From Cliona cf. orientalis (taxonomy: Eukaryota > Porifera > Demospongiae > Clionaida > Clionaidae): a stretch of DNA of 64,000 nucleotides. The DNA is taken from positions 5,887,000 through 5,950,999 of the forward strand of contig OZ005691.1 in NCBI GenBank assembly GCA_963930775.1. Reading direction: 5' to 3'. A program made the translations under genes and the position numbers. Positions 41,167 through 58,484 of this stretch are shown here, one piece after another (positions within the stretch are counted from its first letter, which is position 1; every line of letters begins with the position of its first letter). The notes under the pieces are model-generated. The model did no database searches. It had not been told where the DNA came from and saw nothing but the letters and a program-made list of their open reading frames with translations.

Positions 41167-42131
41167 TTAATAGAGAAAATTAATGTCCACCAGCAAAATA
41201 CATATATAGGACCCAACCTTCTCAGCATAGTAGATATAGAATCCGATGACAATGGTGGCAGCTGTCCAGTTGACAAATGTGGCTATTCCACTCCCATGGC
41301 CATGTGCACTCCTCTCACTTGTAAGGGAATGAGCTCAGCAATGAGCAAAAATTTAATACAAAACCGACTGAATAGCTATAGGATCGGAGGCACTGAACAC
41401 TATGATACTTCGACAGCCTGGAGTGACGCAAGTTGTGTAATACAGCAGTGATCCAGAACAGGTGTATTGATGAATTGTGATTCGATTATACTGCTATGTA
41501 GAAGTATGTTCCTAATATTATGGTTATTCTGATGAATTCGAACATGCCTATACCACTCAGCAAAAGGAGAAATTTACTTCCTATAGTCAATATTATTGAT
41601 AATGAAAAGGTGCACTTCCACCGACCAAATATGCTGCTGTAGCTATATAGTTCGTGGATTTTCTAGATTTGCAGCTTCAGCCGAGTATGCATTTCTCACA
41701 TGAAGTCCATTATAATATTATACTTTGGCTAAAGAACAGCACAAAAGACACTATCATGACTGGTACTATGACTTCCTTCCTCTTAAATTCTTTTAAATAA
41801 TAATATTATCAGCTTGGTTTTACGAGAATGCTTACAAGCCTCCTGTATAATTATATGTACTCTGTACTTCTGGTTGTACATCAGAATGCTTCCCTTGCAG
41901 TAGAGATTGGGCACGGTATACTATGTCACAATATGCTATCAGCCATTGTGGGATGAAGACAGTGATACACACCTAGAGTGATATGATGTCAATTACAATT
42001 AGTGAGACATCGTGATAGTATACTGGCTTTAGAAGTAGCTGTACAAATATCAGCCCAATTGCTAGGGAGAGTTGAAAGAAGGAACAGAAGAATCCACGAT
42101 GCTTCGTACATGGGAGACATTTCAGCAGCAT
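41167..42131 (-). CDS. Probable four-TM membrane protein, unrecognised family
   Basis: Assembled by hand on the minus strand: 42131-42024, 41972-41836, 41779-41724, 41580-41554 (27-nt microexon) and 41282-41167. Phases agree throughout and give 147 residues. Four hydrophobic stretches appear exactly where exons join: SFFQLSLAIGLIFVQLLL, VCITVFIPQWLIAYCDIVY, EVIVPVMIVSFVLFF and FLLLLSATFVNWTAATIVIG. A possible N-glycosylation site (NYTG) lies between TM2 and TM3. The first intron would be only 51 bp, similar to the 55-bp intron in CEP20. An acceptor (gcatttcag) a few bases before the ATG suggests a 5' non-coding exon. The microexon is the weakest part. I do not recognise the family. It is head-to-head with the Roc GTPase gene, about 680 bp apart. 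Confidence 0.45.
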
Positions 42132-52585: not shown

Positions 52586-52662
52586 TGCTGTGAGTGGGGA
52601 TTGAACCCACACACTCACATCTCCAGTGTGATGCTCTACCAATACTACAGAGCTGCAAGCCC
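52586..52662 (-). repeat. tRNA-like (SINE) segment, minus strand
   Basis: Reverse complement reads gctctgtagtattggtagagc (D-arm/A box), a TCACA-CTGGAGA-TGTGA anticodon arm, and GTGGG-TTCAATC-CCCAC (T-arm/B box). The acceptor ends do not pair, so it is not a working tRNA; tRNA-derived SINE or pseudogene. Confidence 0.6.
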
Positions 52663-55394: not shown

Positions 55395-55470
55395 TGTCAA
55401 CTACATTAGTGTAATCAGTCTGAAGCTATCTTTAAGATTTATGCTGCAAACTTCATGAGTAGTTTCCACC
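55395..55470 (-). promoter_or_regulatory. SECIS element candidate (selenocysteine insertion)
   Basis: On the minus strand, beginning about 35 nt after the stop codon at 55498: helix I AACUAC (55464-55459) with GUAGUU (55404-55399); core AUGA (55456-55453) opposite UGAU (55417-55414); helix II GUUUGCAGC with GCUUCAGAC (8 of 9 pairs, one G-U); unpaired AAA (55440-55438) 12 nt after the AUGA; and a small apical stem AUCU/AGAU. These are the landmarks and spacing of a eukaryotic SECIS, here type II. It serves the gene at 55498-56820, whose frame has an in-frame TGA at 55924-55926. Confidence 0.8.
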
Positions 55471-55497: not shown

Positions 55498-56820
55498 TCA
55501 TTCGACAGCAGGTTGGTCCTTTAAGCAAGAGAGTAGGTCATCAACGGGTGGCCTCTCATTGTATGTTGTCTGATGGAGAGCAAACAGAACTTTTCCATCA
55601 TTTTTTACTATGAAATCGCCACCCATTATCCAGAGATCGTCATCCTCATACACTAGCTCCGGAAACTTGATTCCTTTTCTCTTCCACTCACCATACGTGC
55701 ACATAGTGACCGTTGTGAGGATCTTCAATATCCTGCGCAATCCCAGCTGCCTGTACAGTGTGTGCTGAGGATCACAGTAAACAGGGCATTGATATGGATG
55801 TGCTTTCCTCCAGACCAGCCCATCTTCCCTTGTCCCATTTGATAATAAAACAACCTTACACCCAAGCCGCTCAAACTCCAGTAAGGAATTCAACACCTCT
55901 TGAGTGTGGTTGTTGCACGGAGGTCAGGCATAGTGGCGCTGGAGAAGAAATAGTGTGTAGGATGAATCGGCATACAAGCTGCTGATTGGTATCTTTTCAC
56001 CAGTGTCTACGTTGATAACCTCAGCATTCCCAGGAAAAGTTGAACCAACTATGGTCTTGTCAGTTGAGACAACCTGCAATAATATTATTTAAAATTGCAA
56101 TAAACAAACAGCTATGTATGTGCCTATGCTTTCAGTGCCTCCAAGTATACGGATTTGTCAGTATTTTACTGAATTCTGACCATAAATACTAATAAAATTT
56201 CAAAAATATTGAAAACTGGGAGAACTTAGTACATACATTGTGGCCATGGAGCCCTTTATAAAAATTATACTGAAAATGCATGCAAAATACTGAAAAATGG
56301 GAATATTTATACTGAAAGACAGGAGAACAGCTTGGAGGCACTGTACTTTAACTATTAAGCTAACCTTATCCTCTTCCTTCTGCACATCAGCATCAGCCTG
56401 GGCTGTCAACTCATTGTACTTTGATTCAGCTGCATGCAATTCATTCACGCACTTCAGTACCTCTTCATCGTCACCAAAGCTACTCCAGAGTTGTTCGATT
56501 TCCTTTCGGGTGCTTACTCCAGATTCGTCGAGCCATTTCCAGTAACCAGTCCACGTAGGTTCCATGATTTGGCGAATTCCCTTCGCGTCGGTCTGATCAG
56601 GTATGATGAAAGAAAACTGGACCCCTCCTATCTGAATAAATTCCTTTCTTCCCGCCTCCACCACCCTAGTTAGGGTAGCTACTAGCTTCTTAGTAGCGCT
56701 GATGAACTTTTCTTTCTGCAACTCCATGGGTGAGAATTTCGCTGAACTTGTATACAATGTCAAGTAGCCTCGTAGGTACCGAATAAATAGGCCTGTGAGG
56801 CATCGTGGAAATGTGCGCAT
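55498..56820 (-). CDS. AhpC/TSA-type (PRXL2/SelU-like) selenoprotein with U-x-x-C motif
   Basis: Two exons, 56820-56365 and 56073-55498, joined in phase 0; 343 residues when the TGA at 55924-55926 is read as selenocysteine. Residues 1-31 are Arg-rich without acids (MRTFPRCLTGLFIRYLRGYL..) and could be a mitochondrial presequence; an alternative start is Met32. Residues 32-152 are a helical, partly coiled-coil region I do not recognise. From about 160 comes the thioredoxin-fold domain of the PRXL2 (AhpC-TSA_2) family: VGSTFP, LLQRHYA-U-P-P-C (Sec202, Cys205), LGCKVVLLSNG, YCDPQHTLYRQLGL and IMGGDFIVKNDGKVLFALHQ. TGA sits exactly where relatives have the first Cys of CxxC; frame and similarity continue on both sides, and a SECIS follows. 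Likely a thiol/peroxide oxidoreductase. The alternative, a pseudogene with one nonsense codon, is less likely. The donor (AAG/GTTAGC) is weak. Confidence 0.88.
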
Positions 56821-57470: not shown

Positions 57471-58484
57471 TCACTGAAAATTATTATTCAGGAGCCACGG
57501 CATTCTGGTTAGGATGTGTACACCAAATTTAAACCACATAGACTTGATGCCCTCGGTGAAAGTAGTCTGTAGCTTCTGATTCAAATAGATGAGAAGACAA
57601 GCGTACGCAAGTGTATCATATTCAACAAAGAGCTGGAAGAGAGTTGAGATATATTATAGTAGAGTGGAGATGACTCAAAGTTCTCTAGTGATATACCACC
57701 GTAAGCATTGTTTGTTGCAAGTAGCAAAATACCGAAACAAAAATTTACAACTGATATCATGATAGTCATCAATATGGGTAAGAGCAGCATCTTTCGAGTT
57801 AGGCCTTCTGGTGGGTTGATTGTTGATTTACGAAAAAGTCTGTATGAAGCAACACAAAAGATGACAACTAGAGTAAGGGAAACCGTATCGACTGCTAAAT
57901 CTCGGGATGTGTAGAGTATGATTTGACCCTGAAAGGCAGAAGAATCTGGTACAAGTATAGCTCAAAATCATCGGTGTATAATTGGCACCTCAAACTCGTA
58001 ACATTCCTGGTGCTATAGGCAAGGTCAATGGCCCACAAGGCTGGATATACCCAGACAATAACAACCGCAATTAATACCTTCCTATACATAAGTTTGTGTG
58101 AAGTACTGTTGTATTTCAGTGTGAAATTTATTCCCACAGAGAAAGCAGCAAGGTTGAGAGTGCTGACTCCAAAATGTGTCCATATAGACGTTGCTAACAT
58201 GACTGGCTCCAGTGCACAGCTACAGTAATAGGATAGACAATTAGGACAAGGAAACCGTTTAGAAGGTTGCTCAGAATACCATAGCAGCATTGGTTTCCAG
58301 TCAGGACACTGAGTGGAGATTGTAATTCCTTCTTCTTCACAAACAATGCAATGATGGTGCCATTTACAAGCAGCGATGGTACTAACAAGAAAAGTACATA
58401 AATTGGTGTGAGCACGCTGTGAACTGTTTGATGTTCCCTACTGCAAAAGTTTGCTTCATAGCTAGTGTTGTTCGAGCCTTCCAT
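57471..58484 (-). pseudogene. 7TM receptor-like gene, copy 1, with frameshifts
   Basis: Read from 58484 down: MEGSNNTSY.. with possible glycosylation, TM1 LTPIYVLFLLVPSLLVNGTI, TM2 GILSNLLNGFLVLIVYPI, TM3 GVSTLNLAAFSVGINF, TM4 VLIAVVIVWVYPALWAI, a loop with LRCQLYTDDFEL, TM5 VSLTLVVIFCVASYRLF, TM6 LLLPILMTIMISVVNFCFGI, and a TM7 remnant ending LNQKLQTTFTEGIKS. The topology is that of a GPCR but no diagnostic DRY or NPxxY is seen. Compared with the partial copies at 60617 and 61420 it has a 10-nt deletion after TM2, a 2-nt change in the loop after TM4, and a 5-nt insertion before TM7, so the frame is broken three times unless unusual introns intervene. Probably a pseudogene. Confidence 0.65.

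Follow-up and report, generated by a model that had tools for sequence, protein, structure and literature searches.

A probable multiplied, one-selenocysteine offshoot of the SelL family, most likely AphC-like, in the genome of the sponge Cliona cf. orientalis

We describe a two-exon, minus-strand gene of Cliona cf. orientalis that stays in frame through a single TGA codon at 55926-55924, where re-reading of the frame gives RHYA[TGA]PPCNN. We are highly confident that this is a eukaryotic selenoprotein gene in which UGA stands for selenocysteine (Sec), and that it represents a SelL-family branch with one Sec (UxxC) that has been multiplied in this genome and most likely corresponds to the AphC-like proteins. 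Evidence comes from the TGA itself and its conservation among paralogues, from selection on both sides of it, from a SECIS-like element past the stop codon and from the part of the Sec machinery that the genome was found to encode. All coordinates refer to the window, i.e., the whole 64 kb stretch of DNA that was analysed, and the features of the gene are as follows.

56728..56820, minus strand: in-frame extension upstream of exon 1, probably 5' untranslated; the nearest paralogue lacks a counterpart.
56365..56727, minus strand: exon 1, coding; N-terminal domain of 121 residues (MELQKEKF..EEDK) from ATG 56727; homologous exon in the neighbour on C3 and in the copies on C6, the domain itself also in the UxxU genes.
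56364-56074, minus strand: intron of 291 nt, phase 0, GT..AG.
56073-55498, minus strand: exon 2, coding; AhpC-TSA_2/peroxiredoxin-like domain, with stop TGA at 55500-55498.
55924..55926, minus strand: in-frame TGA, predicted Sec at residue 171, first position of U-P-P-C.
55915..55917, minus strand: TGC, partner cysteine at residue 174 of the U-P-P-C motif.
55399..55464, minus strand: SECIS-like element; helix I AACTAC/GTAGTT, quartet ATGA (55456-55453) and TGAT (55417-55414).
Upper part of the SECIS-like element, minus strand: helix II GTTTGCAGC/GCTTCAGAC, apical AAA, short stem.

The frame, the motif and the phase across the exon boundaries had been recognised in a sequence-only reading of this DNA and were confirmed when the frame was re-read. 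That reading started the protein at 56820, which gave 343 codons and placed Sec at residue 202; this start found no support and probably lies 93 nt, or 31 residues, too far upstream. The nearest paralogue is 89% identical over exon 1 from ATG 56727 onward and has no counterpart of the 31-residue extension, and an ATG is found at, or one codon before, the position matching 56727 in all five intact copies on C6. Because the nearest paralogue lacks the extension and the copies align from ATG 56727, the latter is the likelier start, and the protein probably comprises 312 residues with Sec at position 171. Exon 1 ends at 56365, where the splice junction reads GAGGATAAG followed by GTTAGC, and the C3 neighbour as well as the C6 copies have an intron at the matching position. 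Of the feature limits given previously the frame stands, and the 3' limit at 55498 does not; the feature reaches further because a SECIS-like element lies beyond it at 55463-55400. Upstream on the same strand (57471-58437, minus), open frames resemble pieces of a membrane protein. Elsewhere in the window (52586-52653, minus), a tRNA-like match scored 31.2 bits with Rfam, barely over the cut-off, and might be a tRNA or a tRNA-derived repeat.

With exon 2 as query, a search of the sponge's genome, which comprises 149 contigs and 216.8 Mb, returned 11 rows that correspond to 10 loci, as one broken copy yields two rows. The loci other than the window gene group as follows.

C3 neighbour: about 11 kb from the window gene, just beyond the window edge; 81% identical in exon 2.
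C6 paralogues: six loci in a stretch of about 13 kb; five are intact, the sixth is broken.
Distant genes on C17 and C18 (L023, L024): UxxU, with two motif TGA codons each; 34-36% identical in exon 2.

The genome thus carries seven intact UxxC copies, one broken copy and one remnant, beside two UxxU genes. The remnant on C6 (L022:5440-5535) and the broken copy (L016/L019) have both retained the SECIS-like element. At the Sec site a TGA is present in all ten loci, and the codon three positions after it encodes Cys (TGC or TGT) in eight; the two UxxU genes on C17 and C18 have a second TGA there. Between the window gene and its C3 neighbour, dN/dS (Nei-Gojobori) is 0.165 before the TGA (170 codons) and 0.167 after it (141 codons). 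The other 20 pairs of the seven intact copies gave 0.13-0.33 before and 0.13-0.43 after the TGA where the ratio was computable, with some synonymous distances saturated; four of the C6 models start one codon past their ATG in this analysis, which leaves the comparison of window gene and neighbour unaffected. Purifying selection thus acts on both sides of a retained TGA, and the region after the TGA is therefore translated and selected. An in-frame TGA with conserved and selected coding sequence on either side of it is one pattern expected of a eukaryotic selenoprotein gene, and the window gene has it.

The same data bear on two readings that dispense with Sec wholly or in part. The TGA could be a disabling change, in a pseudogene or through a sequencing error, and copies of this family do decay, as the broken copy and the remnant on C6 demonstrate. 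Yet the TGA in ten of ten loci, the equal purifying selection before and after it and the retention of the SECIS-like element make this explanation wholly improbable, and the first two of these observations likewise appear to dispose of splicing around the TGA. Somewhat less remote, though still improbable, is the proposal that translation often ends at the TGA and a short product, consisting of the N-terminal domain and the beginning of the redox domain, is made as well, with Sec insertion regulating the ratio of the two forms. Decoding of UGA as Sec is often inefficient, and the constraint before the TGA equals that after it. However, the same constraint persists beyond the TGA, and the full product is therefore selected for.

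How this codon fares in automated annotation is apparent from 23 database relatives of the exon. As the sequence-only reading had foreseen for automated gene callers, 17 of the 23 begin past the TGA; five span the site and one (P0024) is in another frame there. All five spanning proteins have W at the Sec site, which probably represents TGA as written under genetic code 4, although TGG would give the same protein letter. Use of code 4 is indicated because P0002, P0003, P0004, and P0024 show W at the stop of the window gene and read on into the 3' end. A profile search yielded 148 relatives, with 120 among the matches listed. In the 39 proteins read in all, seven span the site, with W at the first motif position in each and C (three) or W (four) at the second. 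Among the matches listed, P0004 and P0022 are 69% and about 60% identical to the window protein, respectively, and both show W..W in code-4 style. In viral contigs, 25 stretches fit a pattern and none was a relative.

The sequence-only reading did not include a SECIS element, and we add a candidate with the form ATGA .. AAA .. TGAT and a short apical stem. Rfam SECIS_1 matches at 55463-55400 over its full model length, 35 nt past the stop, with 19.6 bits, short of the model's cut-off of 35 bits and with an E-value of 2.9 in a run of all 4227 families on 3.6 kb. When the same model was run on eight paralogous loci, it was listed for three (L012, L013, and L014; 21.9 to 23.4 bits) and not for L009, L010, L015, L017, and L018. 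Across the whole genome, Rfam SECIS models gave no match at E up to 0.001, and the controls likewise gave none. A strict SECIS grammar (quartet, helices I and II, apical AA or CC) found a single match on both strands of the 64 kb window, namely this site. Shuffled sequence contained eight matches in 384 kb, or about 2.7 per 128 kb, so that the count in the window is no excess and only the position of the element is informative; when the 300 nt directly downstream of the stop were shuffled 500 times, a match arose in only 2 cases. Among the paralogues, the grammar picked up five C6 copies but not the C3 neighbour.

Comparison among copies extends these results. A covariance model built from five C6 copies, leaving out both C3 genes, recovered the window site with 47.5 bits (E 9.6e-8) and the neighbour with E 1.2e-4, E-values that are rough for models of this kind. 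The aligned SECIS cells are paired in 95.7%, versus 27-43% when slid. In the copies compared, no base pair had changed on both sides; the copies are too alike for covariation to be informative. Further indication comes from relatives whose translations over-read into the 3' end and spell out the SECIS-like element, which shuffled tails did as well in 1 of 1000 cases for P0003 and in 0 of 1000 for both P0004 and P0024. The tail of P0002 was not significant in this automatic test (184 of 1000 shuffled tails); by eye, it shares YAKWELHMKFAA with one frame of the 3' end of the C3 neighbour. P0024 ends in SVQGGNYLWSLQHKS, and the 3' end of the window gene reads SVQGGNYSWSLQHKS in frame under code 4. 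The 3' untranslated region thus holds a SECIS-like element, though its Rfam score is under the cut-off and covariation is uninformative. Another site of the window, at 41785-41862 on the minus strand, is a weak match to the SECIS models (20.4 bits, E 0.11; 19.3 bits, E 0.27) and probably due to chance; 0.27 is also the next-best E-value that the C6-only model gave in the window.

Part of the machinery for Sec incorporation is present in the genome. A tRNA-Sec scores 76.8 bits and is called tRNA-SeC(tca) by ARAGORN. On C14 (L042, around 4095497, minus strand), an in-frame TGA lies in LKG[TGA]GCKVPQEE, which we take to be the active site of SPS2, near exon pieces that match the selD profile under the cut-off. 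SepSecS exon pieces, each under the cut-off, are located on C12. These three components, i.e., tRNA-Sec, an SPS2-type TGA and SepSecS exons, make up the part of the machinery that was found. Besides the window family, an in-frame TGA interrupts a gene on C8 (L025, match at 9643484-9643723) in the motif RRFG[TGA]PFCR, which matches human PGF synthase with E 2.2e-46. With Rfam, the regions downstream of the two UxxU genes and of the C8 gene gave no SECIS, and SECIS model R1 had no match for any of the three. Folding revealed SECIS-like stems downstream of the C18 and C8 genes, and a relaxed SECIS scan of the 3 kb after the C17 gene gave no candidate.

The sequence-only reading had proposed a SelU-like selenoprotein. 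The position it gave to Sec, the first of a CxxC-type motif, is borne out by the TGA in all ten loci; assignment to SelU/PRXL2 is not. In favor of a true SelU/PRXL2 member with Sec in the PRXL2 CxxC motif, the window protein has the Pfam family AhpC-TSA_2 (along with AhpC-TSA) in common with that family, and the best match of its domain among PDB structures in Foldseek is human PGF synthase/PRXL2B. The domain adopts a thioredoxin/peroxiredoxin-like fold in which the redox residue, domain residue 50, starts a helix, and likeness to PRXL2B is confined to the fold. At the sequence level, the window domain, searched against PDB chains, did not match human prostamide/PGF synthase (PRXL2B) even with E allowed up to 10, whereas the genome's PRXL2B-like gene is a separate one, namely that on C8. 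Together with the tree, the SelL-related profile and an N-terminal domain in common with the UxxU genes, these results, in which PRXL2B served as the comparison, lead us to reject SelU/PRXL2 membership, a reading that we consider very unlikely.

Kinship with SelL has several sources of support. The UxxU genes also encode the N-terminal domain found in exon 1, as seen by tblastn (E 8e-15 to C17) and by alignment, and at 34-36% identity they are the closest relatives in this genome beyond the UxxC copies. With the NCBIfam profile SelL_rel_redox (NF040769), the window protein scores 85.7 bits, below the cut-off of 120, and the UxxU genes are likewise below it with 96.9 and 106.1 bits. In a tree of 28 rows with Cys substituted for TGA, the UxxC genes form a clade with support of 100/100 that adjoins the clades of the two UxxU genes, and bacterial rows fall outside the UxxC and UxxU clades (90/100, drawn open). 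The exact place of the PRXL2B-like (SelU3) row is unsure because its branch measures four changes per column. SelL is described as a protein of aquatic organisms that has two Sec and forms a diselenide (PMC2397514, PMC3316567). The genes on C17 and C18 are probably SelL, judging from their UxxU motif and their profile scores, and differ from the window gene in being open in one frame rather than split into two exons. The window gene, in turn, groups with SelL-type sequences in the wider sense and has their N-terminal domain, but it is not a SelL in the strict, two-Sec sense, since its motif is UPPC, the second codon is TGC and one Sec is encoded in the motif. The earlier reading thus spotted a selenoprotein correctly and filed it wrongly; the gene very probably belongs to an AphC-like/SelL branch with UxxC.

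Of 99 pattern matches in a scan of genomes for relatives in bacteria and archaea, three loci were confirmed, all bacterial and SelL-related: L036 (Chthonomonadaceae), L037 (Chloroflexi), and L038 (Thermoflexales). Their domain is 25-32% identical to that of the window gene and has a TGA at the same first position in all three, followed at the second position by Cys in two and by TGA in one. In contrast to the window gene, the bacterial reading frames showed no N-terminal domain of its kind. The locus with two in-frame TGAs (L038, ~2001-2471, RHLG[TGA]LH[TGA]RE), from a Thermoflexales (Chloroflexi-type) MAG, is a possible bacterial UxxU relative. Among the sequences read, the first position appears constantly to be Sec and the second is variable.

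Within sponges, the window gene most likely belongs to the AphC-like family of Jiang et al. 2012. AphC-like selenoproteins are described there as confined to sponges, with three in Amphimedon and others in Oscarella and Suberites (PMC3473315). Aq.AphC.like a, b, and c have a Sec-TGA, a Trx-like fold and AhpC-like similarity around the Sec, and two of the genes form a tandem; each of these has two coding exons, and their SECIS elements are homologous and of the form GUGA_AA (PMC3473315). The same paper reports no homologues of this family in other eukaryotes and enters SelL separately (PMC3473315). The window gene and its C3 neighbour likewise are a tandem pair with two coding exons and homologous SECIS-like elements; they differ in having AUGA in place of GUGA_AA, and nine traces of the family are found here versus three genes in Amphimedon. 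We infer identity with the published family from this gene structure and tandem layout. Among the titles and abstract openings listed by literature searches, none joined the sponge AphC-like family to SelL. Our analysis adds the SECIS, a likelier start, the kinship with SelL, and the copy number.

A further proposal, which we regard as tentative and somewhat doubtful, is that AphC-like proteins are a subfamily of SelL and not an invention of sponges, in which the second Sec position toggles between Cys and Sec, giving UxxC and UxxU forms among close copies. P0004 and P0022 are possible cases of UxxU inside the UxxC clade, with the caveat that the second W could be TGG. If the proposal is true, a single codon separates a selenenylsulphide (UxxC) from a diselenide (UxxU) enzyme among close copies.

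For the window gene itself we infer Sec insertion as well as the chemistry, substrate, and reductant of the product from sequence and by analogy with SelL and PRXL2B. The SECIS hairpin just past the stop would direct the ribosome to insert selenocysteine at the UGA (55926-55924), with the genome's tRNA-Sec delivering the Sec. The predicted product of 312 residues would combine the N-terminal domain with a peroxiredoxin/thioredoxin-fold domain that carries the U-P-P-C redox pair. Analogous to the UxxU diselenide of SelL and the CxxC of PRXL2B, its selenol might attack an oxidised substrate (a peroxide or a disulphide), the neighbouring Cys could resolve the intermediate as a selenenylsulphide, and a thiol reductase might then reduce the latter. 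The resulting UxxC chemistry would differ from that of SelL, which has two Sec and forms a diselenide.

The gene is a clear example of ordinary annotation cutting a gene at its active site, and it ties an apparently orphan family of sponge selenoproteins to SelL. With seven intact UxxC genes and two UxxU relatives in one genome, this sponge offers a natural system for the role of the second selenium of SelL, and the multiplication of the copies suggests a redox role that depends on selenium and is peculiar to this lineage.
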